Source of the DNA: a virus
DNA length: 64,000 nucleotides
Strand: one strand, 5' to 3'
IMG/VR virus record: IMGVR_UViG_3300030328_001039
Coordinates: 31,712-95,711 of that record
In this document: positions 45,708-63,735 of the stretch, one piece after another
Layout: the number at the start of each line of letters is the position of its first letter
Position numbering within the stretch: position 1 is the stretch's first letter
Notes under the pieces: model-generated
The model's input: only the letters and a program-made list of their open reading frames with translations
Database searches by the model: none
What the model was told of the DNA's origin: nothing
Program-made: the position numbers and the translations under genes

Positions 45708-48043
45708 CAGACACCACCTACACTTACTTTGACTACCTTAACGACATCAGTAGAAACATTGAGTCGCTTTGCGATTCTCTCCCAGTCACCAGTGGCATAC
45801 GCAATTGAGCGAATATCAACTGGCGTTAGGTCTACACTCTTGGCAAGATGATGAACACCTGATAGGTCTGCAACATTGATTGGTCGAACCAGTGCGTGTT
45901 TCATAATCTTAGAATCAGCACGAGCATCATCCATCTGCATATCCTCCATAGCCTTCATCACTCTATCCATAGGTGAGAGTTCTTGTGATTGTGATTTCAT
46001 GTATTGGGTGAGCAAACGCTGTCGTGGGTCGCCCATTGTTTGTTGATACATTTGCTCTTGAGGGGATAGTTGCATACCTTGTCCTTGAGGTACTCTTGCG
46101 CCAGCCGCTTGTATAATTCTACGGAGAGATGCTGGTTCAGCCACGCCAACATGCCTTCGTGCTGCTACTAACTCAGGGCTTTGCGGTGTAAATGTTGGTG
46201 CTCCCCTTGGGGGTACTGACGGGGTTGAAGCAGCCGCTGGGGGAGCAGCAGCGGCTGGAGGTGGAGATGGGGCGGCAGCAGCAGGTCTTGGTGCTGCTGG
46301 AGCAGAAGGAGGTCTTTCTGTTGCTGGAGCAGTTCTTGAAGTGCTCATACTAGGAGCAAGAGATACATCATTGTAGAATGGAACATGAGCAGGTAGTCTT
46401 TCAACTAATTCATCAGGGTATGTCATGTAACGAGAAGATAGACCACCAGTTGGGAGAGTATCAGGTAATTGTCTACGAGTTTGATGACCAAATGCTTCAC
46501 TTACCAAATCAGCCAAAGCCTCAGTTGCCTGTCTGCGTTGTTCAACAGTTTCGTAACTCTGAAGATTTAATCCCAATCCTTGAATTACGCCAGCGTCAAT
46601 GTTACCTTCGGCATCTCTTGGCATATAGGCTCGTAATGCGCTATCGTGTTCATCATGAGTACCACTCAACATAGCCTTAGCATAGAACTCAGCAGCGTTC
46701 TTATGTGTTCCCAATCCTTGTGTAGTTTTTTGACCATCAAGAGTTTCTAGGTGTTTACCCGGAATAGCGTGTGAGTTTATCGCATCGAATCCAACATCAT
46801 GGTCTTTTCCAAATGCTTGAAGAATATGGTCAAACGCTCTTTTTCCTATACCGGGCTTTGCTGCTGACCCACTGTTAATACGACCAAACAACATATTGAA
46901 TGCTGGAGTTCTTGATAGTTCTTTTAGCATACCTTCAGTAAGAGTTGGTGTCCTCAATACTGTTCTAAGGTTCATCATAGTGTATCTAGGTTTTCCCGTA
47001 GTTCCCGGTGTAGTATTAATTGGAACATCAACATCAGGCACCTTATTAGGGTCAATGACTTTTAACGCCTCAGCGATATGGATTCTAGCACTATCAATAC
47101 CATTACTTAACCCAGTTTGCTGTCGATTACTCATCATGTGCATAAAGTCAGGAGTGTGATTCATAATCTCCCAAGACCGGATTCCAGTATGGGCTGCATC
47201 GTGAACGACACCGGGAGGAGCATTAGTAATGTGGAGACTTGGTAACATATACCCTTCAGAGGTCTGCATAATTTTATCCCCACCTCTACCACGAATACGA
47301 TTACCACGAGGGTGTAAATCCTTAATGTCAATATGAGGATTGTCAATAAACTCAGCACCGACTAAATCTTTCAGCCCAAGTTTTTCTAGTAGTATCTTTT
47401 GTAAATTATGATTGTAAGGAACAGCATATGATTCAATCATAGCACCTACTTTTTCGTTACGGTTTTGACGATTAGTATATGCTGTAATGTAGTCACCACT
47501 TTGAGACACATGAGCACGAGTTGTAGGTTTACGACCACCATAGCCAGCAACACGAATCTTTCGATGTTTTATATCATCAACATCAGGAATATTATGATAC
47601 CCGCTTTTATCTTCATGTTCTGCATTTGTCATATCAATTGCTGTTTGAACAAGATTTTGCGGAGTAAGAACTCCTAACTCCGGGTCATTTTGACCTAGCA
47701 ATCCATTTTTCTCTAATGATTCACCTACAGCATGGAGTACACCATCAATACCGTGGTGATGTGACTCTCCGTTCTCATCTAGGTATACCATCTCACCATG
47801 TTTACCTGTAGCAAACTTACCGGGAATTAACTCACCCATACCGAAGTGTCCTGACGGGTGATGCTTTGCTGCACCATGATGTGCAAAAGCGGGTACATCG
47901 GGAGTATTAGGGTCAGGATGGAATGCTTCGGGAGGAGGAGCAGTCTTTAGATACGGCTCAAGTCGCCCTGTTTCGGGATTAGTGTAGTAACCGTAAACAC
48001 CGTCACCCTTGCGAATAATGGATTTGCGAACTAAGATACTCAA
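45707..48043 (-). CDS. Unrecognised 778-aa late protein with SILVRK N-terminus
   Basis: Uses TTG at 48043, overlapping the upstream stop as TTGA, and begins SILVRKSIIRKGDGVYGYYT. His-rich stretches (FAHHGAAKHHPSGHFGMGEL, ESHHHGIDGVLHAVG) suggest metal binding. The middle has a globular, Asn/His-rich region (DPNKVPDVDVPINTTPGTTG). Residues ~570-620 are a Pro/Ala-rich linker, and the C-terminal 150 residues are helical, ending TPVDIRSIAYATGDWERIAK. The function is unknown. Its size and location in the late operon suggest a virion component. Confidence 0.65.
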   Translation of the reverse strand: MSILVRKSIIRKGDGVYGYYTNPETGRLEPYLKTAPPPEAFHPDPNTPDVPAFAHHGAAKHHPSGHFGMGELIPGKFATGKHGEMVYLDENGESHHHGIDGVLHAVGESLEKNGLLGQNDPELGVLTPQNLVQTAIDMTNAEHEDKSGYHNIPDVDDIKHRKIRVAGYGGRKPTTRAHVSQSGDYITAYTNRQNRNEKVGAMIESYAVPYNHNLQKILLEKLGLKDLVGAEFIDNPHIDIKDLHPRGNRIRGRGGDKIMQTSEGYMLPSLHITNAPPGVVHDAAHTGIRSWEIMNHTPDFMHMMSNRQQTGLSNGIDSARIHIAEALKVIDPNKVPDVDVPINTTPGTTGKPRYTMMNLRTVLRTPTLTEGMLKELSRTPAFNMLFGRINSGSAAKPGIGKRAFDHILQAFGKDHDVGFDAINSHAIPGKHLETLDGQKTTQGLGTHKNAAEFYAKAMLSGTHDEHDSALRAYMPRDAEGNIDAGVIQGLGLNLQSYETVEQRRQATEALADLVSEAFGHQTRRQLPDTLPTGGLSSRYMTYPDELVERLPAHVPFYNDVSLAPSMSTSRTAPATERPPSAPAAPRPAAAAPSPPPAAAAPPAAASTPSVPPRGAPTFTPQSPELVAARRHVGVAEPASLRRIIQAAGARVPQGQGMQLSPQEQMYQQTMGDPRQRLLTQYMKSQSQELSPMDRVMKAMEDMQMDDARADSKIMKHALVRPINVADLSGVHHLAKSVDLTPVDIRSIAYATGDWERIAKRLNVSTDVVKVVKVSVGGV

Positions 48044-50883
48044 ACTCGCCCACTCCCTCTACCTACAAGAGCACCGGGGTCAAGCCCAAAATCTCGTGGC
48101 TCATTGTTTGCATCCTCTGTACCACCTTGGTTTCGATTTGTTTGTTTGGGATTATTGGCTGGGTAGTTGGGTAAAGTGCTCGCAGCACCAGCGGTGTCAG
48201 GTTCACCCTTACCTTTCTTTTTACTATCCTTGTCTTTCTTTTCACGCATCAATTCACGAATCTCTTTGAGAGCAATTCGCATCAATGCTGCTTGATATGC
48301 ATTCGCTTTGAGAATATCACTGTGCTGAGGAGTGTCCTCGCTCATTGTTATCATACCCGGCATCTTAGGTCGGACTAAGTGAGGCATCTTCATCTTAGGT
48401 GGTTGAATACTTGGAGCACGAACTGCATGTAGTCGTGGTCTTGGGACACGAGGATATTGTAGAGTGTTTGTCAAACGACCACCACCAGTTTGACCTGATA
48501 TGAATGAGCGTTGGCTATGTCTCATGTGTGGTGTGTATACTGTTCTTACACCGCCCAAGAGTTTACGAGCATCTTGTGAAGCAAGATAAGGTCTGTATTT
48601 TTGAGGGTCTTTAGATGGAGGTTGTTTACTAGCAAGACCTCGGTGTGAAAACTCAACGGAAAGGTGTGGCCTCATTAGCCCAGTTTTACGCCCCATCGGT
48701 AGATTACGACTGATATTTTTAGAGCGTCTTGATGAAATATTCCGAGGGTCGCCACCGCCCTTTGGTTTCTCAAACTGACCAGTAGATGGTCGCCACTTAG
48801 CATAACCCTCTTTCTTGCGTCTACGGGCTACACTACGCTTAGATTCTGATTTTTGGAGGTTTTGTTGTGAAGGATGTTCGCCTCTCGCCATATCAGTTTC
48901 TAAGTATTGGTCATAAACATCTCCTGTTATTTCGTGATACCTCCCACATTTAGGGCAAAATATGTCTACCAATTCTTTAGGGTTATCTTCAGGGCCACGA
49001 TAATGTGCTTCATAACTTCCATCGCATTCTTCTTCAGTATTGTCACAACGAGAACTTGGCCCTTTAGCGGAATAACCAACTGGTATCTGTTTCAACAAAG
49101 ACCAAGCAAAGTCCATAGGACTACTTTTTTTCACACGAGGGTCAGGGACTAATTGACCATTAACAAACGCCATTCCGGGTACTGGTGAATCTTGAATATC
49201 AGGTTCAGGTTCAGGTTCAGGTTCAGTGAATGGGCCGGGTGGTAGCATCTGAGAGGAGTACAATTGTCGATTATAAACAGTTTGAGGGTTCAGTTTAATT
49301 TTTCTAGCGACCTCTCTTAAATCAGCAATTTTATTTTTCTCATCCACAGTAGTGGGTAGTAGAGGTGTTTTATCATCATCCATTTCAGCCCTGTGTCTCA
49401 TCATTTCAGGATGGCTGCTATGTGCATATCGTAGCCATTCAGGAATACCCGCTGCTACATTTCTTTCTGCTCTATCCTCCGCATCTCGTCTTATTTTATG
49501 TGACAAACCTTGCCTCATGTGACCTCCTGAATGTCCTGAAGAAGCCCTTTTTCTATCAATATAACGCTGTGCTTCAATATCAGGATGGTGGTAATCTAAG
49601 GCTTCAGCCTCAGACATTTTGAGTAGTTGCCAAGCCAAGTCCATAGGCTCACCTGCTAGTTTATTTTGCCAATCATCATCAGGTTGCTCTTGCATCTGCG
49701 GCCCTAATAAATTACCAAGATAGTTTGCATGGGTATAGAGTGCGGCAAGATTACCTGCTATATGGGCCATAGGGTGTGCGTTACCTAATTCTTGGGTCAT
49801 CATAGCGTTTTTATGTTGGTCTACTAACCAACTTGGTAATTCATGCCCTCGCCCATCTAAGGTTTCGCTTAAATAAATCAATGAGTTTCTATGTTCCATT
49901 AAAGAGTCCATAGATTCTTGCGCTCCCCAAATATGCCGGTCATTATGCATCTGATTCATCATATCGGGGTCACCATGTATATGATTATCAAATCCTAACC
50001 CCTCCATCATACCCATATCTACCATATTGCTAATCGTAGGCATATCAAAGCCCATTATTTGTTTAAGCCATGTCTCTTTAGGTGTTTTTGATATATCATC
50101 AAAATTAATACGATGGCCTTCTTCCTCTTCCTTTAGTAATTGATAAGCCAAGTCCATAGGCTCACCTGCTAGTTTTTGACTAGAAAGGAAATCCGCAATA
50201 CTTTGTTTAAGTTCCTCTTCTTCTCTCTCTTTGTCAGTAACCGCTGGTTCAGGTTTTTCATAGAAGCCGGGAGATTCTCTAAGTTCTTCAATTTCATCTT
50301 GTAGTTCTTCACCCGCTTCGTTATGCATTATTTCTTTTTCAAACTCAGGGTCAAGATTTTGGCGAGGGTCACGAGGATTACCATCATAGTCATAGTAAAA
50401 CTCTTCATCGTAGAGGTCATCGTCATCGTCATCGTCATCGTATTTCAATAACCGCCAAGCCAAATCCATAGGCTCAGACATCTGAATCATTTGACCCCCA
50501 GCAGCACCCGGCCCTTTTGCTCCCATAGCAAGACTTGTTAGGAATCCACCAGCACCGCTTGGCATAGTTTGGTCTGATGGATTATCAGTAGAACCACGAG
50601 GCTTGAACTTCTCTTCTTCTTCGTCTACATCTTCTGTAGGTTTTTCGCCCTCAAGACCAAGATGATGTGAACGGACTTTGATATGACGGATTTTCTTATC
50701 TTCTTTTTCCTCTCGTTCTCGCTTGGCTTGTTTTTTGTCTCTGCGTCTTTCCTTGCTTTTAGCATCTTCAATACCGCTTGGTGGCCTTTCATCTTCGTGA
50801 TTAGCCCTAAACATTTCAGAGGACTCTGAGCGAGGGTTGTATATCCTCGTATCAGAGGTTCGGCCTTGCATACCCTCCGTCAT
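48040..50883 (-). CDS. 947-aa protein with four copies of the EPMDLAWQLLK helix
   Basis: Starts at an ATG overlapping the stop upstream (ATGA). It is acidic and low-complexity with an Asp8 run. Four copies of a short helix occur: SEPMDLAWRLLKY, GEPMDLAYQLLKE, GEPMDLAWQLLKM and SSPMDFAWSLLKQ, separated by unrelated segments. A zinc ribbon (SSRCDNTEEECDGSYEA, then FCPKCGRYHE) lies near residues 612-655. The C-terminal third is Arg/Lys/His-rich (KSESKRSVARRRKKEGYAKW) and could bind DNA. The helix recurs in the proteins at 56-61 kb. I do not recognise a family. An internal head protein that contacts both DNA and a common docking partner is an inference. Confidence 0.65.
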   Translation of the reverse strand: MTEGMQGRTSDTRIYNPRSESSEMFRANHEDERPPSGIEDAKSKERRRDKKQAKREREEKEDKKIRHIKVRSHHLGLEGEKPTEDVDEEEEKFKPRGSTDNPSDQTMPSGAGGFLTSLAMGAKGPGAAGGQMIQMSEPMDLAWRLLKYDDDDDDDDLYDEEFYYDYDGNPRDPRQNLDPEFEKEIMHNEAGEELQDEIEELRESPGFYEKPEPAVTDKEREEEELKQSIADFLSSQKLAGEPMDLAYQLLKEEEEGHRINFDDISKTPKETWLKQIMGFDMPTISNMVDMGMMEGLGFDNHIHGDPDMMNQMHNDRHIWGAQESMDSLMEHRNSLIYLSETLDGRGHELPSWLVDQHKNAMMTQELGNAHPMAHIAGNLAALYTHANYLGNLLGPQMQEQPDDDWQNKLAGEPMDLAWQLLKMSEAEALDYHHPDIEAQRYIDRKRASSGHSGGHMRQGLSHKIRRDAEDRAERNVAAGIPEWLRYAHSSHPEMMRHRAEMDDDKTPLLPTTVDEKNKIADLREVARKIKLNPQTVYNRQLYSSQMLPPGPFTEPEPEPEPDIQDSPVPGMAFVNGQLVPDPRVKKSSPMDFAWSLLKQIPVGYSAKGPSSRCDNTEEECDGSYEAHYRGPEDNPKELVDIFCPKCGRYHEITGDVYDQYLETDMARGEHPSQQNLQKSESKRSVARRRKKEGYAKWRPSTGQFEKPKGGGDPRNISSRRSKNISRNLPMGRKTGLMRPHLSVEFSHRGLASKQPPSKDPQKYRPYLASQDARKLLGGVRTVYTPHMRHSQRSFISGQTGGGRLTNTLQYPRVPRPRLHAVRAPSIQPPKMKMPHLVRPKMPGMITMSEDTPQHSDILKANAYQAALMRIALKEIRELMREKKDKDSKKKGKGEPDTAGAASTLPNYPANNPKQTNRNQGGTEDANNEPRDFGLDPGALVGRGSGRV
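49201..49226 (-). repeat. AGGTTC hexamer repeat coding (EP)n
   Basis: Four tandem AGGTTC units (plus strand) encode an alternating Glu-Pro linker in the 947-aa protein. Confidence 0.8.
50416..50440 (-). repeat. GTCATC hexamer repeat coding Asp8
   Basis: Four tandem GTCATC units (plus strand) encode an eight-Asp run just after the first EPMDLAW helix of the 947-aa protein. It is a slippage-prone microsatellite inside a gene. Confidence 0.85.
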
Positions 50884-51278
50884 GTATTATCCCCCATGAT
50901 ATGGTATTCAAAACACTGTCGCAACTTTTCGCTTATTTTTCTATAGAATGACATTATTCTCGGACTATCTTGAAACGCCGAAGTCATGTTTTCCATCGTA
51001 TATTCAAACTCCTCAAGCAAGCGAGGTATAAGATTGTAAGCAGGGAAAAATGTAGTAGGGTTATCATCTTCAAATACGGTTTCAAAAGACTTTGCTAACA
51101 ACTTGAATAAATCAGGTGGTGTGATATTTAGTTCACCATAGTGCTCAAATCTTTCTATGACGCAGCGACAAAAATCAAGATACATCGGTACATGACTTTC
51201 AAAAATAACCAATTCACTATCTACCATTGAATAACCCGGATGGGTCATCTGCAACAAATCAGGCACTGGAACTGGCAT
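50880..51278 (-). CDS. Helical late protein (132 aa)
   Basis: I use the ATG at 51278, which overlaps the zinc-HTH gene's stop (TGATG) and is served by AGGTGAT; an adjacent TTG is less likely. Almost wholly helical (VPMYLDFCRCVIERFEHYGE, LLAKSFETVFEDDNPTTFFP, SFYRKISEKLRQCFEYHIMG). Three cysteines, no CxxC. It lies between a candidate small terminase and a large late gene. Function unknown. Confidence 0.6.
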   Translation of the reverse strand: MPVPVPDLLQMTHPGYSMVDSELVIFESHVPMYLDFCRCVIERFEHYGELNITPPDLFKLLAKSFETVFEDDNPTTFFPAYNLIPRLLEEFEYTMENMTSAFQDSPRIMSFYRKISEKLRQCFEYHIMGDNT

Positions 51279-51961
51279 CAATTCATATCACCTGCGTGCT
51301 CTAATAGTTGTTTACGAACTCTAGCCCAAGATTCAGGACTCTCTTTTCCAAGTTCAAGTTTGAGAATGTTAATTGTGTTGTTAATTTGGTTGTTTTCAGT
51401 TGTAGGACTCCATTGTTCATTCATCTTCAATAAGTCCTTTATTGATTCTCTGACTTCTTTGTGTAGAGAAACTGCGTCTCTAACAAAACCATCTTCATGC
51501 ACGCTACCCTCATTTAGTAACTCAGTTAGTTTAACATTAAGTAATTCAACATTTGACCTAAGCGCATTGATTTCTTCTCCCACCACTAATGTAATTTCAG
51601 CGGCTGCGCTTCTTTGAACTAAAGGTTGAAAGTGATGTTTCATATGATGGTAGACTGATGACTCAGCAATTTCAAGTTCCTCAGCAATAGCCTCGGATTC
51701 AGAGCCATCTTCAAAAAATCTACGCTCAAAATCAGCCCTTTCGGGGTGAGCGCATACTTTGCATTGAGGGTTAGAAGCCATATGATATTGACCCATGTGA
51801 TTACGGAAATGACGGTCAGTTGTGTTGAGCCGCCAGCCCATATCTTTGTCAAGTTGTTTAGGTGATATTTCACCATCAAGCAGACCCTTTTCTAAATCGG
51901 CACGACTAGGATGTTGGCACAAAGGGCAAGACCTTTTTGTGATACCACCACCCTCCGCCAT
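51278..51961 (-). CDS. Duplicated zinc-knuckle helix-turn-helix protein, candidate small terminase (227 aa)
   Basis: Two copies of one module: residues 12-55 (CPLCQHPSRADLEKGLLDGE ... DRHFRNH) and 67-110 (CKVCAHPERADFERRFFEDG ... SSVYHHMKHH). Each pairs a CxxC with a trailing His cluster around a helix-turn-helix (EAIAEELEIAESSVYHHMK). This is a DNA-binding design known from phage small-terminase-like and regulatory proteins. The C-terminal half is a long coiled coil (EINALRSNVELLNVKLTELL). DNA-binding N-terminus, oligomerising C-terminus and a place upstream of TerL fit a small terminase; a transcription factor is the alternative. A dyad lies just upstream of its start. Confidence 0.6.
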   Translation of the reverse strand: MAEGGGITKRSCPLCQHPSRADLEKGLLDGEISPKQLDKDMGWRLNTTDRHFRNHMGQYHMASNPQCKVCAHPERADFERRFFEDGSESEAIAEELEIAESSVYHHMKHHFQPLVQRSAAAEITLVVGEEINALRSNVELLNVKLTELLNEGSVHEDGFVRDAVSLHKEVRESIKDLLKMNEQWSPTTENNQINNTINILKLELGKESPESWARVRKQLLEHAGDMN

Positions 51962-52021
51962 GACACGCTTAAAGCAGCATTACCCATAATGCTTTTTCTC
52001 CTGAACCTTTTCGGAGGTATT
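51962..52021. promoter_or_regulatory. Divergent intergenic region with a perfect dyad
   Basis: This 60-base gap separates the leftward zinc-HTH gene from the only rightward gene. It holds AGCATTA-CCCA-TAATGCT (51976-51993), an exact 7-bp inverted repeat, followed by TTTTT on the plus strand, and the ribosome site GGAGGT (52013-52018). The dyad may be an operator shared by both directions or a terminator-like hairpin; an operator fits the divergent layout better. Confidence 0.5.
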
Positions 52022-52306
52022 ATGCTGCCACCTTACGAGAGAGTACCGAAACAGCCTCTCAAAAAGCGTGGTAAAGATTTACTTAATGCTTCAAAAGATG
52101 CACTGAAAGGTCGTAGAGTCTCAAAAGAAGAATACATGGAGAGGCTTGATGAGTGTTATCAATGCCCTTACATGCAAAAAAGAATGGGTACTTGCCGACT
52201 GTGCAATTGTGTAATGAAAATTAAGGCACTTGCACCCTCAGTTGGCTGTCCTATAGACAAGTGGTTACCGAGTAATTCGGGAGTAGAGAGTAGTCAGGAA
52301 AACTAA
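52022..52306 (+). CDS. Six-cysteine zinc protein, the only rightward gene (94 aa)
   Basis: I start it at the ATG at 52022, six bases after GGAGGT; an upstream frame from 51911 would overlap the divergent gene and has no site. The N-terminal 40 residues are basic (PKQPLKKRGKDLLNASKDAL). The rest has Cys45, 48, 58, 61, 63 and 76 in CYQCPYM..TCRLCNCVMKIKALA..GCPIDKW. This pattern is seen in small marine phage proteins of unknown role. The 3' end overlaps the convergent gene by 42 bases. Orientation and own ribosome site imply separate regulation from the late operon. Confidence 0.75.
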   Translation: MLPPYERVPKQPLKKRGKDLLNASKDALKGRRVSKEEYMERLDECYQCPYMQKRMGTCRLCNCVMKIKALAPSVGCPIDKWLPSNSGVESSQEN

Positions 52307-52516
52307 TCCTCCAAAGATACCCACTACAAATACACTAACATCTCCGCTGCTCATTGAATCTCCCTTGAAAACTAAGATAGATGCACAAGCGATAATGATT
52401 GAAATAAACTGAACCATTATCATTTCTACAATGATGTTTCTGCTTGGAGCAAATATAGTGCTACTTGCTTGACTTATTCTCATGCTGTAATCAGACATAC
52501 TACCTGCTTGAACCAT
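52265..52516 (-). CDS. Small two-helix membrane protein (83 aa)
   Basis: A clean AAGGTGATAAA site precedes the ATG. Two hydrophobic helices (IIVEMIMVQFISIIIACASI, then VSVFVVGIFGGLVFLTTLYS) follow a short Ser-rich head. The size and topology would fit a holin, but nothing identifies lysis genes beside it. The frame's end overlaps the rightward gene tail-to-tail. It heads a set of membrane-linked genes running to the GTPase. Confidence 0.65.
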   Translation of the reverse strand: MVQAGSMSDYSMRISQASSTIFAPSRNIIVEMIMVQFISIIIACASILVFKGDSMSSGDVSVFVVGIFGGLVFLTTLYSRITR

Positions 52517-52525
52517 TTTATCACC

Positions 52526-53188
52526 TTAATTTCTTGGTAGTCCTATGAGTCCACGAGCGACACTACCAATTCCGCCACCGACTTTGTTCATCATTCCTTC
52601 ATCTTGTAAAGCAGCACCAAGAGCATTACCCATTAGAGACTGTTGAGCCATATTGAAAATCTGTTGTCTTTGCATTTCAGCATCTTGGAACTTTTGATTA
52701 CTTGTAGCCACCATGTTGTTAAGAATCATACTAACATTTTCTATGCTAAGTGTCTGTAAGTCAGAAGGTAAAGTAGAGGGGTCAAGTTTCATACCGCCTT
52801 CTTCTTCATCAATAACAAATGTAGCATTCTTTAGAATGTTAAGCAAACTTAGGCTTGTAGTAGCAGCAATCAAATCTATTAAAGTCCCAAGCCCTCCGTC
52901 TTTGATAAAACGATGAATTGGATTTTGAGATTGTAGTAAAGCACCCATCAACTCCATTTCGCTTGGAGGAGTGAATTGTTGTTGTTGATACATTTGTTGC
53001 TGTTGCTGATTCATCCCAGCCCCATTCATCAAACCAGCCATTAATCCTTGATTTTGCTGTTGCTGCATAGGTTGTGCTCCAAGAGTAAAGTTGCTTTGTG
53101 GTTGCTGCATTCCGTAGTTTATCCCTCCGCCAGTTGCTGAAAGATTCAACCCACCAGTTTGCTGTTGTTGATTACCAAGACCTAACAT
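52526..53188 (-). CDS. Gln-rich protein of the GTPase cassette (220 aa)
   Basis: GGAGAGGC lies upstream of the ATG. The first 75 residues are Gln/Gly/Met-rich and probably disordered (QQQQTGGLNLSATGGGINYG). The remainder is helical, with a hydrophobic segment LGTLIDLIAATTSLSLLNIL near residues 100-120 and IFNMAQQSLMGNALGAALQD. It follows the 312-aa zinc protein with a four-base gap. Unrecognised; a minor virion or membrane-associated protein. Confidence 0.55.
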   Translation of the reverse strand: MLGLGNQQQQTGGLNLSATGGGINYGMQQPQSNFTLGAQPMQQQQNQGLMAGLMNGAGMNQQQQQMYQQQQFTPPSEMELMGALLQSQNPIHRFIKDGGLGTLIDLIAATTSLSLLNILKNATFVIDEEEGGMKLDPSTLPSDLQTLSIENVSMILNNMVATSNQKFQDAEMQRQQIFNMAQQSLMGNALGAALQDEGMMNKVGGGIGSVARGLIGLPRN

Positions 53189-53192
53189 CGTA

Positions 53193-54131
53193 TCATGCCT
53201 CTCCAGTAACTAATCCACCATCAAGGTTCTGTTGTATTTTGCCATTTTCAGTATTAAGTAATTCTTGAAATGCTTGTGTCGGCATATTCATTTGTTGTAG
53301 TTCCATTTGGAATATACGCAAGTCGAATACAACCATCGTTACATCGTTTTGACCAGTTGCTGGATTTGCATAATGTAGTATATTGATACCTTTTGTTTTA
53401 CCTGCATCTCTTTCTAGTTCAGCAAAGAAAGGCTCATACTTTTGCAGCATAGCAGGTGTTGGGTCACTTTTCTTCACAGATGAAATAGGAACGGTAACAA
53501 TTGATACTCCTCTCTTTACTTTATCACGAAGGCGGCTTGGATTCATCTCATTTTGCTTATCCTCTTCAGCCTCCCACTTTACCAAAAGATGGTAGAGATG
53601 CATATGCTCAGGGCAATATGTTCCTTTGAGTTTACGACCACTGGTTACCTTATCCTGAGCGATGAAGGCTTCAGGCTGGCCTGTAACTGGATTTTGCCAA
53701 TACATTTCCCATAAAGAGCGACCAGTTTCTTCGTCACTAATTTTCATGTAGAGATTGTCATGTTGAATTAAATTAGCACAGTTACAACCGTCTACAACAC
53801 ATGTGCCAGTATCTTTTGCGTATCTGTATTTTCTACCAAACAACCATCTCATAGGATTGAATGCTGAATGCTTTGCTGGTTGAAGTAATTTGTAGGCTTG
53901 CTTGATGTCTTTACGGCGAGCCTTTCTTGGGTCAGGATGACGACTTGGATAAAAATTAACTTTGGGAACTTCAATATTTCCCGATGCTGCTGCTGCCGCT
54001 TGCATACCTTGTTGAGCCATCAACATTTCTTGTAGAGCAGCCTGAGTAAGTTGGTCGTTACCTTGCATAGCCAAAGTTGCTAATTGTGCTTCGTTAAGAT
54101 TCTGTTGTTGATTTCTACTGAAGTTCATCAT
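53193..54131 (-). CDS. Zinc-site protein of the GTPase cassette (312 aa)
   Basis: Overlaps the AbrB gene's stop (ATGATG). A Gln/Ala-rich helix (LTQAALQEMLMAQQGMQAAA) leads to a basic linker (PRKARRKDIKQAYKLLQPAK) and a metal-like cluster (CVVDGCNCANLIQHDNLYMK ... YCPEHMHLYHLLVKWE, about residues 110-195). The C-terminal domain is mixed alpha/beta (IVTVPISSVKKSDPT, GKTKGINILHYANPATGQND). Unknown family. The cysteine and histidine cluster suggests a zinc-stabilised fold. Confidence 0.6.
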   Translation of the reverse strand: MMNFSRNQQQNLNEAQLATLAMQGNDQLTQAALQEMLMAQQGMQAAAAASGNIEVPKVNFYPSRHPDPRKARRKDIKQAYKLLQPAKHSAFNPMRWLFGRKYRYAKDTGTCVVDGCNCANLIQHDNLYMKISDEETGRSLWEMYWQNPVTGQPEAFIAQDKVTSGRKLKGTYCPEHMHLYHLLVKWEAEEDKQNEMNPSRLRDKVKRGVSIVTVPISSVKKSDPTPAMLQKYEPFFAELERDAGKTKGINILHYANPATGQNDVTMVVFDLRIFQMELQQMNMPTQAFQELLNTENGKIQQNLDGGLVTGEA

Positions 54132-54325: not shown

Positions 54326-54380
54326 ATCCTCACCGAAAGAGTTGTTATTCAAAAGGCTACCTATGGGGTCATTTTTTGGG

Positions 54381-55367: not shown

Positions 55368-55376
55368 TCATATTCC

Positions 55377-55994: not shown

Positions 55995-56096
55995 AAAGGT
56001 TGCTGGGGCTGTTGTCCGAGTTGTCCGTTGTATTGTTTATACATTTTACAAGAATATATTATTTGTCTATATCAGACATTAGACAAGTCGGACAAC
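55995..56096 (-). promoter_or_regulatory. Promoter/operator region of the membrane-GTPase cassette
   Basis: The largest gap between leftward genes outside the right edge, about 100 bases. It holds GTTGTCCGA at 56011-56019, GTTGTCCG at 56020-56027 and the inverted TCGGACAAC at 56088-56096. A perfect TTGTCTA/TAGACAA dyad spans 56063-56086, and an AT-rich TATA-like core (AATATATTATT) lies around 56053-56063. Promoter plus repressor/activator sites is the natural reading. Experimental mapping is absent. Confidence 0.55.
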
Positions 56097-57983
56097 TTAG
56101 AATGGATAAGGGTGCGTCAATTCTTTTCTATCTTCGCCACCCTCTTCTTGTTTGTAGTCATCTAACGATGTAAGAAGAGCCTGTGCTATCTTTTTGTCTT
56201 GCTCATCCATTGGCCCATTCATAAGATTTCTTAACAATTCTAAATCGCCTTTGAGTCCTTTTGTTAGAGGGCGTTTTGTACCTTTCTCTCGGAAATGTCG
56301 TGCTCGGTTATCGTGCTCATCTTCTACTGTCAATTTACCACCTTCGGTATGGGAAATGTCACGGTGAGAGTGGTCACCGTACATACCACGCTTTCGTCTT
56401 TCTCTATTCAACTCTTCTCGGTATTTGATTCGCTCAGGCGATGACTCATACTTTGTGTCATATTCTTTTTTATGACGCTTTGCTTCAGGAGACTTACGCT
56501 CTTTACGAACTACACCAATATCTGTCATACTAACACCACTTTTTTTGACTTTTTCGGGATAGTGGTAAAGGAATACAGGCACTGATGTATCACCATGCCC
56601 CATTTGTCTTAGAGCCTCCATACGATGACCACCATCTTGTTCTCCAGTAAACTCATTATTTCGGAAATATAAAGAAGGCATACCGATTGGTTTTCCTTCT
56701 TTAATACCCTCCATAATACGGTCTATATTTTCACGACTGCCCCCCCACGGAGAAAACTTCATTCCATCCCATCTATATTTTGCTTCTTTACCGGGTATGG
56801 GCGGTGCTGTGAATAATCCTCTATCTACTCCACCTTCTTTTTCAGCAAGGGCTTGAATAACATCAAAGTATTCATTAGGAGTCATTTGACCAATTTGGGT
56901 CTTACTATTTAGGTCACCGCCACCCATACCTTCACCGTCAAAATCTGTAAAATACGGTTGAGTGCCAATAGTAGGTTCAGGATAATTATGAGGATGAATC
57001 CATTTTTCATTGTAACCCATACGGACACCGGGAATGTCAGTGTCTATTATAGGCATTTTGAGTAATCGCATAGCAATTTCCATTGGTTCACTTCGTACAA
57101 TAGCAGGGTGTCTACTTGCTAAATCTTGTGCTACTTGTTCGCCTGACATGAAAGACGGGTAAAAATCAGGACTTGGTGTATGACCGACTTGCGCTCTTAT
57201 TGCACCGTATTCATCCCAGTTTGTAAAATCTTGAGGAGTAGGATTGTTACCGGCTAATATCTGCTCTCTAAATGCTTCAGACAAAGGTACTTTTTGTGCT
57301 TCGTGCATAGCCTCATGCGTAGCAGTTTGTCCCATGTGGTCTATGAGTTTACGCTCTTGTGTTTCTTCATCATCACCCAATTGACCTAAACCTAATCTTC
57401 GCCCGTATTCGCTAAGGTTAATTCCCCTAAAGGGCATATCTTTGCTTTGACCCCCCCAAGCAGATTGCATGTTCCATGACATAGGTGAAATCATACTACC
57501 CATCTCTTGATGACCTCCTGTTGCTGCACGAGTTTTCGCATCTGCAATCATTATAGGTTCGTCTATTGTTGGGTCTAAAGCCCATTCATGCCCTTCTTTT
57601 CTTGCTTGTTGTAGTCCTTTTGGGTCTGTGTCACCAAAATAAAAAGATGCTTTGAGTAATCGCATAGCAATTTCCATTGGCTCGCCTGTCATTATATCTT
57701 GAAACTCAGGAGTAAACTTTGTTTCATTTCTAAACATTGATTGCTGGCTAAGTGGGTGCTCATCAGGTAGAGGGAAATAATCTTGGTCACGCTCTCTTAT
57801 CTTTGACTCCCGTATAAGTTCATCGAGCACATTACTTAGTTGTTCACCATTAATAGGTAAAGATAACATACTTCTAGGAATGTGTTTATCTAATAACCTC
57901 ATCGTTTTATCCGAATTAGGATTCAACATTTCTGATAAATCTTGCATAGGTATCATAGCAAAAGGGCGAGCCTCTTCAGGCAT
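56097..57983 (-). CDS. 628-aa protein with HExxH zincin motif, ParB-like domain and two EPMEIAMRLLK helices
   Basis: One base after the 911-aa gene's stop, with AGGTGTGATG upstream. Helix copies GEPMEIAMRLLKA and SEPMEIAMRLLKM lie near residues 99-111 and 300-312. HEAMH (223-227) in THEAMHEAQ is a zinc metallopeptidase signature; a later WDEYGAIRAQ could give the third ligand. Residues about 425-480 look like a ParB/sulfiredoxin-type fold: SLYFRNNEFTGEQDGGHRME, then ALRQMGHGDTSVPVFLY, with the DGGHR near 452-455. The Lys/Arg/Asp-rich C-terminus (KRHKKEYDTKYESSPERIKY) is disordered. A packaged, injected enzyme is the inference; activity is unproven. Confidence 0.7.
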   Translation of the reverse strand: MPEEARPFAMIPMQDLSEMLNPNSDKTMRLLDKHIPRSMLSLPINGEQLSNVLDELIRESKIRERDQDYFPLPDEHPLSQQSMFRNETKFTPEFQDIMTGEPMEIAMRLLKASFYFGDTDPKGLQQARKEGHEWALDPTIDEPIMIADAKTRAATGGHQEMGSMISPMSWNMQSAWGGQSKDMPFRGINLSEYGRRLGLGQLGDDEETQERKLIDHMGQTATHEAMHEAQKVPLSEAFREQILAGNNPTPQDFTNWDEYGAIRAQVGHTPSPDFYPSFMSGEQVAQDLASRHPAIVRSEPMEIAMRLLKMPIIDTDIPGVRMGYNEKWIHPHNYPEPTIGTQPYFTDFDGEGMGGGDLNSKTQIGQMTPNEYFDVIQALAEKEGGVDRGLFTAPPIPGKEAKYRWDGMKFSPWGGSRENIDRIMEGIKEGKPIGMPSLYFRNNEFTGEQDGGHRMEALRQMGHGDTSVPVFLYHYPEKVKKSGVSMTDIGVVRKERKSPEAKRHKKEYDTKYESSPERIKYREELNRERRKRGMYGDHSHRDISHTEGGKLTVEDEHDNRARHFREKGTKRPLTKGLKGDLELLRNLMNGPMDEQDKKIAQALLTSLDDYKQEEGGEDRKELTHPYPF

Positions 57984-57984
57984 T

Positions 57985-60720
57985 TTACATCACACCTATT
58001 GATTTTGGGAAATTATAATCATTCAAAACTAGAGCCGAATTGTTTCTACTTGCTTCTGTTGCTTGTTGCATAAAGTCATCAGCCCAAGTAGCACCATCTC
58101 TCATTGGTGAGCCAAATATTTGTTTTTCTCGCTCATTGTCTCCTATTTTGCGAGTGTAAGTACCCGGTGCTGTTTCGGTTTCACGCAAAGGTCTGTTTAC
58201 CAATTCTCTAATATGGTCATAGTCCGTAATAGGTTGCATACCTTGTTTGTCAAAGATTCTAGGCCATGCTCCACTGACTTCTATGTAATGACCCGGTATC
58301 TGCATATGCTCCGTCATATGGTCTACAGTGGCACGCTTTGCTGCTGTTTGTCCATCATGTGCTGTTATGGAGGCTTTGAATCCCTGCTCTTGTTGAGAAA
58401 ATACTCTTGCTGCGTCTACATATGGGTCTTGGTCATTGTCAATCATATCATACCGAGCGTGCTTGCCTTCATTTTTCAAATCATTACCATCGCTGTATTT
58501 ATCGTGACCACCCACTGGTTTGTAAGCGATATTCATAGCATTCGCTACTTCATCATATAATTGAGGTCGTGCATCCATCCCCTCTTTTGGTAAACTCACC
58601 CATGAATCTTTGATACCAAAATACTCATTGAAGTTTCTCGGAGAAGGTGCGTGCATATCTGTTTGACTTTCCCATTTCAACAACTGCATAGCAATCTCCA
58701 TTGGTTCGCTTGCTACTTTACGAGCACCACCTCTCTTGTCACGGAGCGTTTCATCCATATCAAGCCCAAGTTCTTCAGCCTTCTCTCTAACTTTACGCAT
58801 GGCTATTTCTGCTGGTACTCTTTCTTCACTAAAAGCCTCAAAGCCTTCGCCTTCAGGAGATGTGAATTGTCCAGTGAGTGCTCGGAATCCAGCATCACCA
58901 ATTGTTGTATTCCAATCACGATTGTATTCTGACTCTTGTATAGGTAGACCAATCTCTTCCATCAATTTTCTTTGATTACCTAAAGCACGAGTTTCCCAAT
59001 CTATCGCTCTTAGCATTTCACGAGGAGTTCTTTGTCCTAATTTACCAAGCCTACGACCCTCTCCCCATTCTGCGTTCAAATCTTCAAGACCTTGTGCGTG
59101 CCCAAGTTCATGCAGTTTTCTCCAATTATCAGTGAATGGTTTGTTAGCGCCAAATGAAGTCGCTGCAACTCCGGGGTCAAAAATAGCAAGATGACCTGTA
59201 TTGTAGTTCTTCTTATCTAAATCGGGATTAGGGTATTCACCACCGAAGTAATATGGTTCGTAACCATAACTTGCTAACAACTCATTTACTTGAGGTGACA
59301 TTTCTGCTAATTCAGATGAGTAAGGTTGTACTGGTTTATCCACCATATCAAGATTCTGTTTACCATAGTGCCTCATAACATCCCAAAAGCGTGGGTCATT
59401 TCTTGGAGCGTGCTGTCCGCTAACATCAATCGCTTCTTTCAACAACTGAAAGGCGATGTCCATTGGTTCACTGGCTAACTTCTTCCATTGTGAAGGGTCA
59501 ATAGCGTGCGCTCTAAATCCTAATTCACTTCCCGGCTCGCCATAATTAAGTCCTTCAACCATAGAGGCTCTATCGTGCCATGTGTCCAGTAAATCACCGG
59601 GGTCAATCCCCTGCGCTATCGCATAATCAAATAATTCATTTGTTTTGGTTTTAAGGTGTTCATCAGCCTCATCGTTCCATAGTTGCTCGTGAGGGGCAAG
59701 TTCCATTTGATTCTCATAATCTATTTGTTCTTTCAACAACTGATAAGCGATGCCCATTGGTTCACTGCGAGTGAAGTATTTCTTAGGGTCAGCATCAGGT
59801 GTATCTAGTGATAATCCTTCAAATGTACCCTCTCTTGTAAATGGATGAACTCTCCTTTGTATTCCTTGACTAGCGTTAGGGGGCGTTAATTTAGTCGGTA
59901 ATTGAATTGGCCCACCGCCCGGTGGCTGAGTAAATGGTACTTTTTCTTTCAGACCCATTGGTACATTTTCTGTATTCTCAGCCATGTTGGGGTCTGCTTG
60001 TCGCCCCTTGATTCTTTTCGCTCTTTCTCTTAGTGCCTCGACATAATCTTCTTGAGGCATTTTGAACTTACGAGGGTCGGGAACTTCATCATCTTCTTCT
60101 TTGAGTAACCGCCAAGCGAGGTTCATTGGTTCACCAGTTTGTACCGATGCACCACGGCGAGCCATTTCCATAGCACGCTGCTCTTGCGCTTGTTTTCTCT
60201 GAGCATTTTGTGCTTGCATTTGTCCGGCTAACTGCATACCGACTTTTTTGTAATCAGTTTTGTTACCACCAGCACCACTTGGCTCTTCAGGTTCAGGTAT
60301 TTCAGCCGCTGGTTCAGCAGCAGGTGATTCAGGTAAAGGTACGCTGTCTGTTCCATCACTTGCTTTGGGTAAACTCGGCTTAGGTGCAGCAGACTCCACT
60401 GCTTCAGCAGCACTAGCCATGCCTTCAGCAGCACCTGCTGCCTCTGTTGCAGCACCGCCACCTTTGACACCGACTTTCGCTTTGATGTTCTTCAGTCCAC
60501 CGCCGAGAGCGACCTTCAATCCTGTGCCTAGTTTACCTAAACCAGTTTTCATAGCACCTCTAACGCCCTGCGTGGCTACTGCATTAGCAGCACCTTGAGC
60601 GCCTACACGAGTAAGAAGTCCTACTAATGGTGCCCACTTTTCAATATCATCAAAATTGAAAAACTTATGAATGTCATCGGGAGAATCCCACGGCACAAAG
60701 TCGTAGTTTTCACTCGGCAT
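57985..60720 (-). CDS. 911-aa protein with HELGH zincin motif and four EPMDIAWQLLK helices
   Basis: Opens with MPSENYDFVPWDSPDDIHKF, then a Gly/Ala-rich helix (THR: GLGKLGTGLKVALGGGLKNI). Four helix copies are visible: GEPMNLAWRLLKE, SEPMGIAYQLLKE, SEPMDIAFQLLKE and SEPMEIAMQLLKW. HELGH at 537-541 sits in RKLHELGHAQGLEDLNAEWG, the gluzincin pattern, with a Trp-Glu (DWETRA) about 30 residues on as a candidate third ligand. The C-terminal domain (FKASITAHDGQTAAKRATVD, HIRELVNRPLRETETAPGTY) is unrecognised. Multi-copy helix plus peptidase motif makes this the clearest member of the packaged-protein group. Substrate unknown. Confidence 0.7.
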   Translation of the reverse strand: MPSENYDFVPWDSPDDIHKFFNFDDIEKWAPLVGLLTRVGAQGAANAVATQGVRGAMKTGLGKLGTGLKVALGGGLKNIKAKVGVKGGGAATEAAGAAEGMASAAEAVESAAPKPSLPKASDGTDSVPLPESPAAEPAAEIPEPEEPSGAGGNKTDYKKVGMQLAGQMQAQNAQRKQAQEQRAMEMARRGASVQTGEPMNLAWRLLKEEDDEVPDPRKFKMPQEDYVEALRERAKRIKGRQADPNMAENTENVPMGLKEKVPFTQPPGGGPIQLPTKLTPPNASQGIQRRVHPFTREGTFEGLSLDTPDADPKKYFTRSEPMGIAYQLLKEQIDYENQMELAPHEQLWNDEADEHLKTKTNELFDYAIAQGIDPGDLLDTWHDRASMVEGLNYGEPGSELGFRAHAIDPSQWKKLASEPMDIAFQLLKEAIDVSGQHAPRNDPRFWDVMRHYGKQNLDMVDKPVQPYSSELAEMSPQVNELLASYGYEPYYFGGEYPNPDLDKKNYNTGHLAIFDPGVAATSFGANKPFTDNWRKLHELGHAQGLEDLNAEWGEGRRLGKLGQRTPREMLRAIDWETRALGNQRKLMEEIGLPIQESEYNRDWNTTIGDAGFRALTGQFTSPEGEGFEAFSEERVPAEIAMRKVREKAEELGLDMDETLRDKRGGARKVASEPMEIAMQLLKWESQTDMHAPSPRNFNEYFGIKDSWVSLPKEGMDARPQLYDEVANAMNIAYKPVGGHDKYSDGNDLKNEGKHARYDMIDNDQDPYVDAARVFSQQEQGFKASITAHDGQTAAKRATVDHMTEHMQIPGHYIEVSGAWPRIFDKQGMQPITDYDHIRELVNRPLRETETAPGTYTRKIGDNEREKQIFGSPMRDGATWADDFMQQATEASRNNSALVLNDYNFPKSIGVM

Positions 60721-60780
60721 TATCTAATGCCAAAGCGTGGCTAGACAAAAGCATATCGCTTATCAAGCGACATCAAGAGT
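60721..60780 (-). promoter_or_regulatory. 60-base intergenic region with a hairpin
   Basis: Contains TCGCTT-ATC-AAGCGA (60756-60770), an exact 6-bp stem with a 3-base loop, in one of the few gaps between genes. No T-run follows on the minus strand, so a strong terminator is not evident; it may be an attenuator, an RNA-processing site or an operator. Confidence 0.4.
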
Positions 60781-61629
60781 TTACTGAAGATTCTCGTAAT
60801 CTATACGAGGAGCAAACTGGTCACCGTATGCGCCTTGTGGTGCTGATGGTGCGCCATAGAACTCATAGCCTCTACTCGCAAATCGTCTATCCGCTTGCAG
60901 TTTAGGCTCACCTACCGCTGGCTGGCCTTGATGTAAGTATGCAGTTTTATTGTAAGGTGTTTGTCCTTTTATGTTTGAAAGACTTGGATTGCGGTCAGGC
61001 GGGGTATGAGTTTGTATTTGAGTGTTACCGGGATATGGGCCGGGTCGTGGTATACGAGTTACTTCAGCCCCCGGTGCTGCTTCTACACCCAATATACCTT
61101 CATGTGGGCGTCTTGTGTTTTCTTGAACATCCATTGTTTGAGGCCCACCAGTAGTTGTATCACCAGTTGGTTTCATTCTACCAAAAAACCCTGTTGGTTG
61201 CATTTCAGGAACTTGAGGGCGTTGAGCCATAGATGCGACTGATGGAGGCATATTGTATTCTGTTCCGTCTTGCATTCCAATTACATTCTTCTTGAGTGTA
61301 TTCCAAGCCTTCATCATTGGATGCTCAGGTGGTGCTCGACCACCAGCCATAGCACCCAAAGAGCCACCTTCGCCAATTGGCCCTCCATGTGCTAACATAG
61401 GTGAAGTGCGTGACTGAGCACTCATAATACGAGTTATATGTTCATACATGTCCTCAGCCGCTTGTCGCTTTGCTGGGTCAGGTGAGTTTTCATTGTCAAG
61501 AACAAACTGCCTCATCTGTTGTAGTTGTATCATTTCTTCGGCCTTACCTTTACGGAGCAGTGCGTCATATGTCATATCAAACATGTGTTCGTTTTTCAAT
61601 ATGTAAAAGGCTTCAGCGAATGCGCTCAT
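60781..61629 (-). CDS. 282-aa protein with degenerate AWxxLK helix
   Basis: The N-terminus SAFAEAFYILKNEHMF and a later HPMMKAWNTLKKNVIG (about residues 103-118) resemble the helix found in the neighbouring large proteins (A-[FW]-x-x-LK). The rest is Pro/Gly/Met/Thr-rich and probably disordered (TTGGPQTMDVQENTRRPHEG). A weak GGATGAAAC precedes the ATG. No enzyme fold is seen. It probably belongs to the same packaged-protein group. Confidence 0.6.
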   Translation of the reverse strand: MSAFAEAFYILKNEHMFDMTYDALLRKGKAEEMIQLQQMRQFVLDNENSPDPAKRQAAEDMYEHITRIMSAQSRTSPMLAHGGPIGEGGSLGAMAGGRAPPEHPMMKAWNTLKKNVIGMQDGTEYNMPPSVASMAQRPQVPEMQPTGFFGRMKPTGDTTTGGPQTMDVQENTRRPHEGILGVEAAPGAEVTRIPRPGPYPGNTQIQTHTPPDRNPSLSNIKGQTPYNKTAYLHQGQPAVGEPKLQADRRFASRGYEFYGAPSAPQGAYGDQFAPRIDYENLQ

Positions 61630-61671
61630 GTTTCATCCGATGATGTTGCTTGATAAAAGCCTAGTGGTCTT

Positions 61672-62790
61672 TCAAGTTCTGTTTAAGGAATCTAACATAA
61701 ATCTGTAACGCCTTGCGTGTTCATCATCACCAAACTCATACAAGCGTTTTTGCTCAGGGGGAGTATTCATCCATTGCAGAGCATTACCTGCTGCTCTATA
61801 ATTATCACGACCCTGACCAATTGCCATTTCTAATTGCTCTCTTTGAGTTGGGTTTGGTTCATATTCACCAAATGCAGAAGGGTTGTCAAGCAATTTTTGC
61901 TCGGCAGCATCCCAAGGCTTGAACTGCTCTTGGTCGTGATATAATTGAGTAAACGAGTCAAGTTGCATTGGGTCTACATCTTTGAAGTCTTGATACAGTT
62001 CCCTCGCTCTTCTTCTTCGTCTTAGGGCGTGCGTGTTACCGGGCTGTCTTGCATGTTCACCATAGTTTTCTGATGCAGGGCCTTTTTGACTCTGCCATAC
62101 CGGTTGAGCCGCTGAATGTAATGTTCGCCCAAAGTTTTCAATCTGCCTAAAGTTACCTACAAAGGGGTCAATTGCTACAAGTTTTCCGTCTTTGTAGCCT
62201 ACATTTTCATCATTTTGTATTATGTCGCCTAAATCTAACGCCAGTCCTAGTGGAGATTCAAGAACTGCCTCTCTATCAAGGGCTCTTAGGTCATTACCGA
62301 AAGCCCTTTTATGCTCTTTCCAATCTTCTAGTGATTCATGCATATTAAAAGGTTCAAGATAATCTCTGAAACTCATATCTACTTTCTCTTGCTCTGTTGG
62401 GAAAAAGCGAGGGTTATTTGTAGCAATAGGTCTTTCAGGGAGAATAGGATAACCAAGTGAAGCAAGTGCATTTATCATAGCCAATGAAGTTTTATCTTGT
62501 GCATAACCATAATTTTGAGGTATTTTTTCTACAGTCTTGTCACCAACTAACGCATATCGGTTCGCCCCATGACCTATTTTTCCCGACCTATCACCTCTCC
62601 AATCTCTTAGAATCTGTGGTAAATGTCGCTCTTCAACTTCGTCTCGCCCACCGTAGTCATCTTCTCCCCAATCATCCATTAGTATGGGTGTATACGCCCG
62701 GTCAAAATAAGTGCGTGGGTCATTTCTTGAAGGATGCAATTTAGGAGTGCGATTCTTTAGCACTTGGTAGGCTTTCTCAAAAGGTAACAC
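61672..62790 (-). CDS. Protein-kinase-like protein with LPFEKAYQVLK N-terminus (372 aa)
   Basis: Starts GTG at 62790. The N-terminus LPFEKAYQVLKNRTP is a helix of the A-x-x-LK type. Residues about 70-215 read as a small-lobe/large-lobe kinase: Gly-rich GHGANRYALVGDKTVEKIPQ (73-92) with a candidate lysine near 89, a catalytic-loop-like LDLGDIIQNDENVGY with Asp189, and the metal-site-like AIDPFVG with Asp208. The C-terminus (ALRRRRRARELYQDFKDVDP) is basic and helical. Known APH/kinase-type folds use these positions to move phosphate. The HRD motif itself is altered, so activity is uncertain. A virus-carried kinase that acts on host proteins early after entry is one idea. Confidence 0.55.
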   Translation of the reverse strand: MLPFEKAYQVLKNRTPKLHPSRNDPRTYFDRAYTPILMDDWGEDDYGGRDEVEERHLPQILRDWRGDRSGKIGHGANRYALVGDKTVEKIPQNYGYAQDKTSLAMINALASLGYPILPERPIATNNPRFFPTEQEKVDMSFRDYLEPFNMHESLEDWKEHKRAFGNDLRALDREAVLESPLGLALDLGDIIQNDENVGYKDGKLVAIDPFVGNFRQIENFGRTLHSAAQPVWQSQKGPASENYGEHARQPGNTHALRRRRRARELYQDFKDVDPMQLDSFTQLYHDQEQFKPWDAAEQKLLDNPSAFGEYEPNPTQREQLEMAIGQGRDNYRAAGNALQWMNTPPEQKRLYEFGDDEHARRYRFMLDSLNRT

Positions 62791-62796
62791 ATTAAA

Positions 62797-63735
62797 TCAG
62801 CCTCTTGGGTGAGAAAATCTATGACTGTGAGTACCATGTTTCATTCTTCCTTCTTTTACACCAAATGGGCTTCCCGGTGCAGCCCTGTTAGGGTTGTGAG
62901 AAATCTCTTCAGAGTTTTTGTTACCGAAGAATTGTCCACCGCTGTCATGCATTCTTCGGTTGAACTCCGGGCCTTGAGCGATGCTCATTCCAGCCTCACC
63001 GTATGCATCTTCAGGGAAACTACTAAATCGCTTTCTATCAGACTGTATTCTTGTATCAGCATCTCTACCCAAATCCAAGTTTAAGTTTGGTGACATACCG
63101 TAATGTTGGTGGTAGTCATCAGTTCTTCGCTGTAGCATACCAAGAATAGCAGGGTGAACAGTTCCCATTGAGCGAGCACCGTAGCGGTCAATCTCAGGTT
63201 TGTCATAATGGTCATCGTAACCATCTTCACCTGCGTTTTCACGAGGAGTGCGCTCTACGAACATTTGCTGCTCAGGTAGTGCTTTCAAAAACTCCCATGC
63301 CTTCTTCATAGGAATATGAAACTCGTCTGCTAGGTTTTGTATGTCACCTTCTTTGAGTCTACCCATTGGGTTACCACTAACAGTGACTGGTTTAATTGGC
63401 TGAGGTTGGTCTCCCATCTGTTCTTCTATGTAATCCATCATCTCAAGAGAAGGCTCAGGTGCTGGGCGTTCAGGCTCTATGGTAGGGTCAGGTAGACTGC
63501 TCATCCTTGGGCCACCCGGCCCACTGAATGGGAACTGTCCGGGGTTTAAGTTGCGTAGAGGTTGGCTTTCAGGCATAGGTAGTGGGTGTTCAACCTGACC
63601 ACCAAAGCGTGCCTTCATTCGCTGCATGTTATTGTAATGGCGCATTTGCTCCTCAGATAACCCCTCATCCATGTGGTGAGGCGAGGGCTGCAAAGCCTTC
63701 AAGAAGGAGAATGCGGTAGCAAAAGCGTCAGCCAT
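62797..63735 (-). CDS. 312-aa first gene of the late operon, with AWEFLK helices
   Basis: First coding sequence after the right-hand non-coding region; the ATG at 63735 has no clear ribosome site and may be leaderless or nearly so. DAFATAFSFLKALQ (residues 3-16) and HIPMKKAWEFLKALPE (about 140-155) are members of the recurrent helix family. The rest is Pro/Gly/Met/Asp-rich and largely disordered. No domain is recognised. Its place suggests it is transcribed from the promoter region at 63736-64000. Confidence 0.6.
   Translation of the reverse strand: MADAFATAFSFLKALQPSPHHMDEGLSEEQMRHYNNMQRMKARFGGQVEHPLPMPESQPLRNLNPGQFPFSGPGGPRMSSLPDPTIEPERPAPEPSLEMMDYIEEQMGDQPQPIKPVTVSGNPMGRLKEGDIQNLADEFHIPMKKAWEFLKALPEQQMFVERTPRENAGEDGYDDHYDKPEIDRYGARSMGTVHPAILGMLQRRTDDYHQHYGMSPNLNLDLGRDADTRIQSDRKRFSSFPEDAYGEAGMSIAQGPEFNRRMHDSGGQFFGNKNSEEISHNPNRAAPGSPFGVKEGRMKHGTHSHRFSHPRG

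Follow-up and report, generated by a model that had tools for sequence, protein, structure and literature searches.

To our knowledge, little is understood outside T4 of how phages select the proteins that they pack for injection. In T4, the unrelated injected proteins IPI-III carry a capsid-targeting sequence (CTS), an N-terminal amphipathic leader of about ten residues, and the phage has a prohead protease that cuts after Glu. Encapsulins, which are non-viral compartments, load cargo into an HK97-fold shell by means of short cargo-loading peptides that are C-terminal and extended.

Further systems come from other phages. The Dar internal proteins of phage P1 are packaged in the head and co-injected, and the N-termini of DarA and the major capsid protein (MCP) are cut by the prohead protease; the passages on these proteins describe no ten-residue tag common to many proteins (PMC12810830). 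SPN3US ejects many head proteins, and its prohead protease gp245 has been shown to process nine proteins at the short motif A-X-E, cutting N-terminal propeptides after Glu and leaving 42 head proteins uncut (PMC10052503). Polyvalent proteins (Iyer et al. 2017, PMC5512222) combine several shuffled effector domains (zincin, ADP-ribosyltransferase (ART), GNAT, ParB-like, kinase) that also occur solo. Their genes lie close to head genes, and the proteins are predicted to travel in the head and to be injected. Searching the paper for terms, we found nothing on linkers or short motifs and a single use of 'archaeal'.

Here we describe a ten-residue motif, [PA]-[MF]-[DE]-x-A-[WF]-x-L-L-K, that labels late proteins of a virus which we treat as a magrovirus. 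It differs from the encapsulin peptide in consensus, most of its copies are not C-terminal, and binding to the shell is in this case a proposal. The role that we propose for the tagged cargo is that of the P1 Dar proteins as those passages present them, whereas DarA uses a larger N-terminal region (PMC12810830). A sequence-only reading of this DNA, made before our analysis, knew of no described system with this consensus. This holds for the tag itself, for which we found no description, and does not hold for the modules, which resemble polyvalent proteins (PMC5512222). Capsid-targeting leaders and polyvalent proteins are thus kinds already known, and the tag is the new part as far as we found: the open-access literature yielded no single position-independent helix labelling both solo effectors and polyvalent modules across an archaeal virus group, and an earlier description is possible.

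The virus and its late genes

The window analysed is a 64-kb stretch (record positions 31,712-95,711) of the 95.7-kb IMG/VR virus record IMGVR_UViG_3300030328_001039. The minus strand carries all of its large genes, which follow in the order tail region, MCP, S78 prohead protease, portal- and terminase-like genes and, furthest upstream, the tagged genes (Table 1); the portal- and terminase-like genes are our reading of the open reading frames. A 6068-aa ORF (window 874-19080) probably encodes a tail or adhesin protein. The C-terminal part of a 410-aa ORF (window 40462-41694) between terminase and portal includes the LAGLIDADG-like SAGFIDADG, and a 1826-aa ORF (window 31587-37067), which adjoins the protease and has homologues in both clades (see below), contains a stretch resembling the active site of ATP-dependent DNA ligases (YDGKR).

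Table 1. Genes and tag copies in the window, with positions counted from its first letter
Feature	Position	Strand	Remarks
HK97-fold MCP	28943-30127	-	phrog_24667, E 3.6e-59; invariant GSELLK-[AS]D near N-terminus
S78 prohead protease with long scaffold-like C-terminal part	30154-31542	-	PF04586, E 2.9e-10; ELLK just before S78 domain
HMG-CoA lyase-like gene	41719-42684		between terminase and portal
947-aa protein	48040-50883	-	136-aa N part, tag and basic C part, plus three tag-module cassettes
Backbone tag PMDLAWRLLK (947 aa)	50443-50472	-	kept in 49 homologues
Tag PMDLAYQLLK (947 aa)	50131-50160	-	pattern match
Tag PMDLAWQLLK (947 aa)	49618-49647	-	pattern match
Tag PMDFAWSLLK (947 aa)	49090-49119	-	pattern match
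628-aa protein	56097-57983	-	N module, HExxH module (HEAMH), ParB-like module, C-terminal SPEA module (phrog_6437)
Tag PMEIAMRLLK (628 aa)	57651-57680	-	pattern match
Tag PMEIAMRLLK (628 aa)	57057-57086	-	directly before ParB-like module
911-aa protein	57985-60720	-	five modules with four tags between; one HELGH zincin-like module
Tag PMNLAWRLLK (911 aa)	60100-60129	-	pattern match
Tag PMGIAYQLLK (911 aa)	59731-59760	-	pattern match
Tag PMDIAFQLLK (911 aa)	59437-59466	-	pattern match
Tag PMEIAMQLLK (911 aa)	58675-58704	-	pattern match
282-aa protein	60781-61629	-	N-terminal and internal tag
Degenerate tag AFAEAFYILK (282 aa)	61594-61623	-	N-terminal
Degenerate tag PMMKAWNTLK (282 aa)	61291-61320	-	internal; absent from sequence-only reading
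372-aa kinase-like protein	61672-62790	-	N-terminal tag
Degenerate tag PFEKAYQVLK (372 aa)	62755-62784	-	N-terminal
312-aa protein	62797-63735	-	N-terminal and internal tag
Degenerate tag AFATAFSFLK (312 aa)	63697-63726	-	N-terminal
Degenerate tag PMKKAWEFLK (312 aa)	63283-63312	-	internal; absent from sequence-only reading

With the MCPs of the haloviruses HVTV-1, HCTV-1 and HCTV-5, the MCP of the record shares 33-35% identity. Magroviruses, which infect marine Poseidoniales, are reported to be close to Druskaviridae, the family of these haloviruses (PMC12999244), and an HMG-CoA lyase-like gene is known from them (PMC10160649). Because the MCP is Druskaviridae-like and an HMG-CoA lyase-like gene is present, we treat the record as a magrovirus; the assignment was made through the halovirus-like MCP and the gene content. 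In line with the order Magrovirales, the record shows kinship with Druskaviridae, a length within the 90-110 kb of such genomes and Caudoviricetes head genes. The host would then be marine archaea (Poseidoniales).

The tag and its distribution

The sequence-only reading had reported ten strong copies of a short helix and degenerate copies near the N-termini of the 282-, 372- and 312-aa proteins. Exact matches to PM[DEGN][LIF]A[WFYM]xLLK confirm all ten strong copies where it had placed them (four each in the 947- and 911-aa ORFs, two in the 628-aa ORF). The degenerate copies are also present, and we add two internal ones, which brings the window to 10 strong and 5 degenerate copies, all within one 15-kb stretch. 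Strictly, strong copies occur in three proteins, and the six named in that reading are reached if degenerate copies are included. We include them because the tag is retained in their orthologues. The N-terminal ones fit the form M-x-[PA]F[DE]xAWxLLK. A relaxed DNA pattern, which does not cover copies with Met at the aromatic position, matches the whole record at 11 places, all on the minus strand at window 49090-63726, and its reversed control at none. A 16-column profile gave 176 matches at or above 16 bits among 1047 genes from the window and relatives, and none in shuffled proteins; its third iteration drifted and was left out.

The tag is not confined to the N-terminus. In the window and relatives together, it lies within the first 20 residues of 86 of 1008 genes (shuffle mean 0.06) and near the last residues of 17 of 1007 (0.11 by shuffle), with only 2-7 residues following the C-terminal tags. 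A profile of the internal form finds 170 internal, 13 C-terminal and 15 N-terminal copies. The N-terminal consensus, M-x-[PA]-F-[DE]-x-A-W-x-L-L-K, was derived from 522 distinct examples, and A5 and K10 carry no weight in it because the search required them. Many small late genes begin with the tag, sometimes in coupled rows; in some viruses, such as L244, it stands at the start of up to six overlapping small genes in succession. The analogy to the T4 CTS, drawn in the sequence-only reading, is apt, and it is closer than that reading could tell because relatives carry the N-terminal form M-x-[PA]FDxAWxLLK. As with the CTS, a short N-terminal leader is found on several unrelated proteins of a virus with a prohead protease, here of the S78 type. 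Unlike the CTS, the tag is also internal or C-terminal, marks domain borders and belongs to archaeal viruses, and its consensus differs from what we take to be the T4 leader.

In the 49 homologues that keep the backbone tag, E, M, A, W, L, L and K are nearly invariant, and conservation falls right after the lysine. Information peaks at positions 2, 5, 6, 9 and 10 of the tag, with minima at 4 and 7, and the spacing of positions 2, 6 and 9 together with alanine 5 suggests one face of a helix. AlphaFold models a helix that spans residues 3-13 in the 372-aa protein, with a low-confidence stretch after it, and residues 10-19 in a ParB construct; confidence at the tag is low in both. A variant with one extra residue, EPM[ED][DN]AWS[ST]L[LM]K, occupies the same backbone position in L186, L192, L226, L230 and other relatives.

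An exact degenerate DNA pattern of the internal form matches 75 stretches in IMG/VR. We checked 49 records, 39 found through this pattern and 10 chosen as relatives, and the same MCP is present in 47 of them, with identities mostly of 72-99%. The N-terminal form matches at least 120 stretches; among 50 records carrying it, 40 encode the MCP and 42 the terminase, and they include a second clade with MCPs 62-67% and terminases 46-49% identical. A broader pattern finds the tag in 49 of 50 relatives and in none of the reversed controls, and the sole relative without it (G046) is a fragment that stops before the expected region. The N-terminal pattern matches three stretches in 257 Gb of bacterial and archaeal genomes, approximately the chance estimate. 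The 47 kb of HVTV-1 (Druskaviridae) that we searched yielded no tag. The tag is specific to one virus group, and within it the motif is kept at equivalent places.

Modules and candidate cargo delimited by the tag

The backbone of the 947-type protein measures 415-422 aa in relatives and carries the tag there also without insertions. The 778- and 442-aa proteins (window 44379-48043) have a second N-terminal motif in common, M(G)SILVRK, and a backbone homologue (L190) has a comparable MGKILIRK.

We cut 177 tagged proteins at their tags and obtained 415 segments, the families of which recur beside different neighbours. Each protein has 2-9 segments from shuffled families, and an 80-aa module is preceded by any of 14 different neighbours on its left. 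In pairwise alignments, 893 of 1624 internal ends on the left side fall inside a tag, and 75% lie within 10 residues of one, against approximately 25% of random positions (the pairs are not independent in either count). Sixteen of 79 multi-member module families occur both as solo N-tagged genes and inside long proteins; the tag of the ParB-like module of the 628-aa protein is internal in one virus and N-terminal in another (alignment A6), and in L195 a gene of its own, with an N-terminal tag, encodes what is the second module of the 312-aa protein in the window. The tag therefore delimits mobile, shuffled modules.

In total, 277 module families that are separate at BLAST level follow the tag, which agrees with the earlier statement that the flanking protein is otherwise unrelated and rules out an ordinary helix of one domain. 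Given these families and the lack of matches in shuffled proteins, we regard a helix of one repeated domain, or a chance similarity, as extremely unlikely; the short length of the motif is all that speaks for it. Since module boundaries coincide with the tag, the motif might also be a DNA recombination joint for module swapping with no role as a peptide. The tag has 117 DNA spellings in 124 contexts. On average, 9.5 of 33 bases differ between the copies in the window, and many of these changes are synonymous. This synonymous variation of the codons indicates that selection acts on the peptide, and it leads us to reject a DNA-level joint. The tag is also present at the N-termini of single-module genes and in the insertion-free backbone, and we consider this explanation very unlikely.

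Pfam searches with single cargo proteins gave almost no matches, and only family alignments gave results. Scored on modules of relatives and not on the window, one tagged family is a GNAT acetyltransferase (PF00583, E 9.1e-6) and another is ADP-ribosyltransferase-like, its profile matching Tpt1-type RNA 2'-phosphotransferase in the PDB (E 1.4e-4) and one member matching PF18760, 'ART-PolyVal' (E 0.0018). The nearest Foldseek neighbours are ParB-N and sulfiredoxin for the ParB-like module (best E 0.24) and protein-kinase-like structures for the 372-aa protein (best E 0.04), neither significant alone; the ParB-like family had no useful match in Pfam or PDB profile searches, nor the kinase-like family in a PDB profile search. 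Two window modules contain HExxH and are zincin-like by this motif only. The SPEA module is nearly always the last in tagged proteins and is also found in Synechococcus phages; a module can thus exist outside the magrovirus-like group.

Judged from these matches, the cargo families resemble the polyvalent-protein set, with ART, GNAT, ParB-like, kinase-like and zincin-like members. Further likenesses are the varied order of the multi-domain tagged proteins, in which differing activities apply to the identified families only, and the position of the tagged genes among the late head genes, with which they share the strand, terminase, portal, protease and MCP lying downstream of them. What sets the tagged proteins apart from polyvalent proteins is the shared tag, which separates the modules and also marks their solo versions.

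Proposed role and the question of cleavage

We consider it probable that the motif is a portable capsid cargo tag of magroviruses, functionally like the T4 CTS. It would act as a short amphipathic helix that begins single-domain late proteins, separates the domains of polyvalent ones and sometimes sits at the C-terminus. During head assembly, the helix face formed by positions 2, 5, 6 and 9 would dock on a partner inside the procapsid; candidates for this partner are the protease's scaffold part, the shell's inner face and the 947-type backbone protein. Approximately 5-15 effector-type proteins would thereby enter the head and be co-delivered with the DNA. The S78 protease would then probably cut after the LLK lysine, which would free single-domain cargo and split long proteins into modules. 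The several tags per long protein weigh against a cargo tag, being more than docking alone should need.

The partner on which the tag docks all these proteins could instead lie outside the capsid, such as a host complex after injection or a late intracellular assembly. One partner for many effectors would explain the conserved helix face, and binding to the capsid is itself a proposal. We nevertheless find an outside partner quite improbable: internal tags lie on the MCP strand in 119 of 121 cases, tags in the window and relatives are mostly upstream of the head genes on the strand of these genes, and the backbone protein, which is always tagged, has its gene just upstream of the terminase region. 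The cargo types also match those predicted to be packaged (PMC5512222).

As for cleavage, the sequence-only reading had suggested G/S-E-P as a possible cut site. G/S-E is not an essential part of the tag because it is absent before the P or A of N-terminal tags, and we reject G/S-E-P as an essential cleavage site; Pro in P1' is unfavourable for most proteases. The idea of a sorting tag is otherwise in keeping with the sequence evidence, since the motif is kept at equivalent places, is not part of one domain and marks unrelated modules. If the tag is cut, a cut after the invariant Lys of LLK appears more likely. The MCP has an invariant LLK-[AS] near its N-terminus, and the HVTV-1 MCP aligns at this site with the lysine kept (GMSK-AD). 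In the second clade, the MCP (GTDLLK-AD) and the protease leader (GSDF[IL]LK-S) resemble each other, and the scaffold part of the protease contains repeated sites such as SGNKNVIK-A. Since hydrophobic-hydrophobic-K sites similar to that of the tag occur in all three of MCP, protease leader and scaffold, a cut by S78 after LLK is possible.

The pattern [LIV][LIV]K[AS] occurs 15-fold over shuffle in the second-clade scaffold and is absent from the S78 domain; other long ORFs also have it 4.7-fold above shuffle, and the scaffold of the window's own clade has no such sites. Cleavage is therefore the weaker step of our proposal, the scaffold evidence coming from the other clade. Furthermore, the LLK before the S78 domain could merely be the start of its fold, and the LLK of the MCP stands out little from a region that is highly conserved as a whole. 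The HK97 S78 protease probably has lysine specificity, a trait for which our literature search found no support. SPN3US gp245, unlike the cut proposed here, acts after Glu on N-terminal propeptides (PMC10052503).

These sites raise the question of whether the motif is mainly a processing site of the prohead protease, with polyproteins or propeptides cut after LLK and a helix that docks nothing. The LLK-type sites of the MCP, protease leader and scaffold are consistent with this, as are the end of conservation at the lysine and the Ala at +1, which is 4-fold enriched in N-terminal tags, as in the MCP site. Protease sites usually span 3-5 residues, whereas here ten residues with helix-face periodicity are kept, and a C-terminal tag with so few residues after it would be pointless. 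We therefore judge a pure processing site unlikely. Going beyond the cargo tag that we favour, a single helix might target any protein to the procapsid and end in a maturation-protease site, so that beads-on-a-string polyvalent proteins would be packed whole and cut inside the head, the tag alone being sufficient for the injected arsenal; this extension seems to us possible but tentative.

If the tag is the selector, the injected effectors of abundant ocean archaeal viruses could be listed from sequence alone, and the list would run to hundreds of proteins, most of them unannotated and so far spanning 277 families. The rule would be testable in any laboratory host that assembles the capsid, and the tag peptide would lend itself directly to loading cargo into HK97-type shells.

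Other short helices are common to head proteins of the window (30154-31542, 37080-37976, 31587-37067 and 37919-38266). A helix L[NST]ERIDT[LI] is present in three of these proteins, and a C-terminal M[ST]WEE[VI]H is common to the protease-scaffold and a 115-aa protein.
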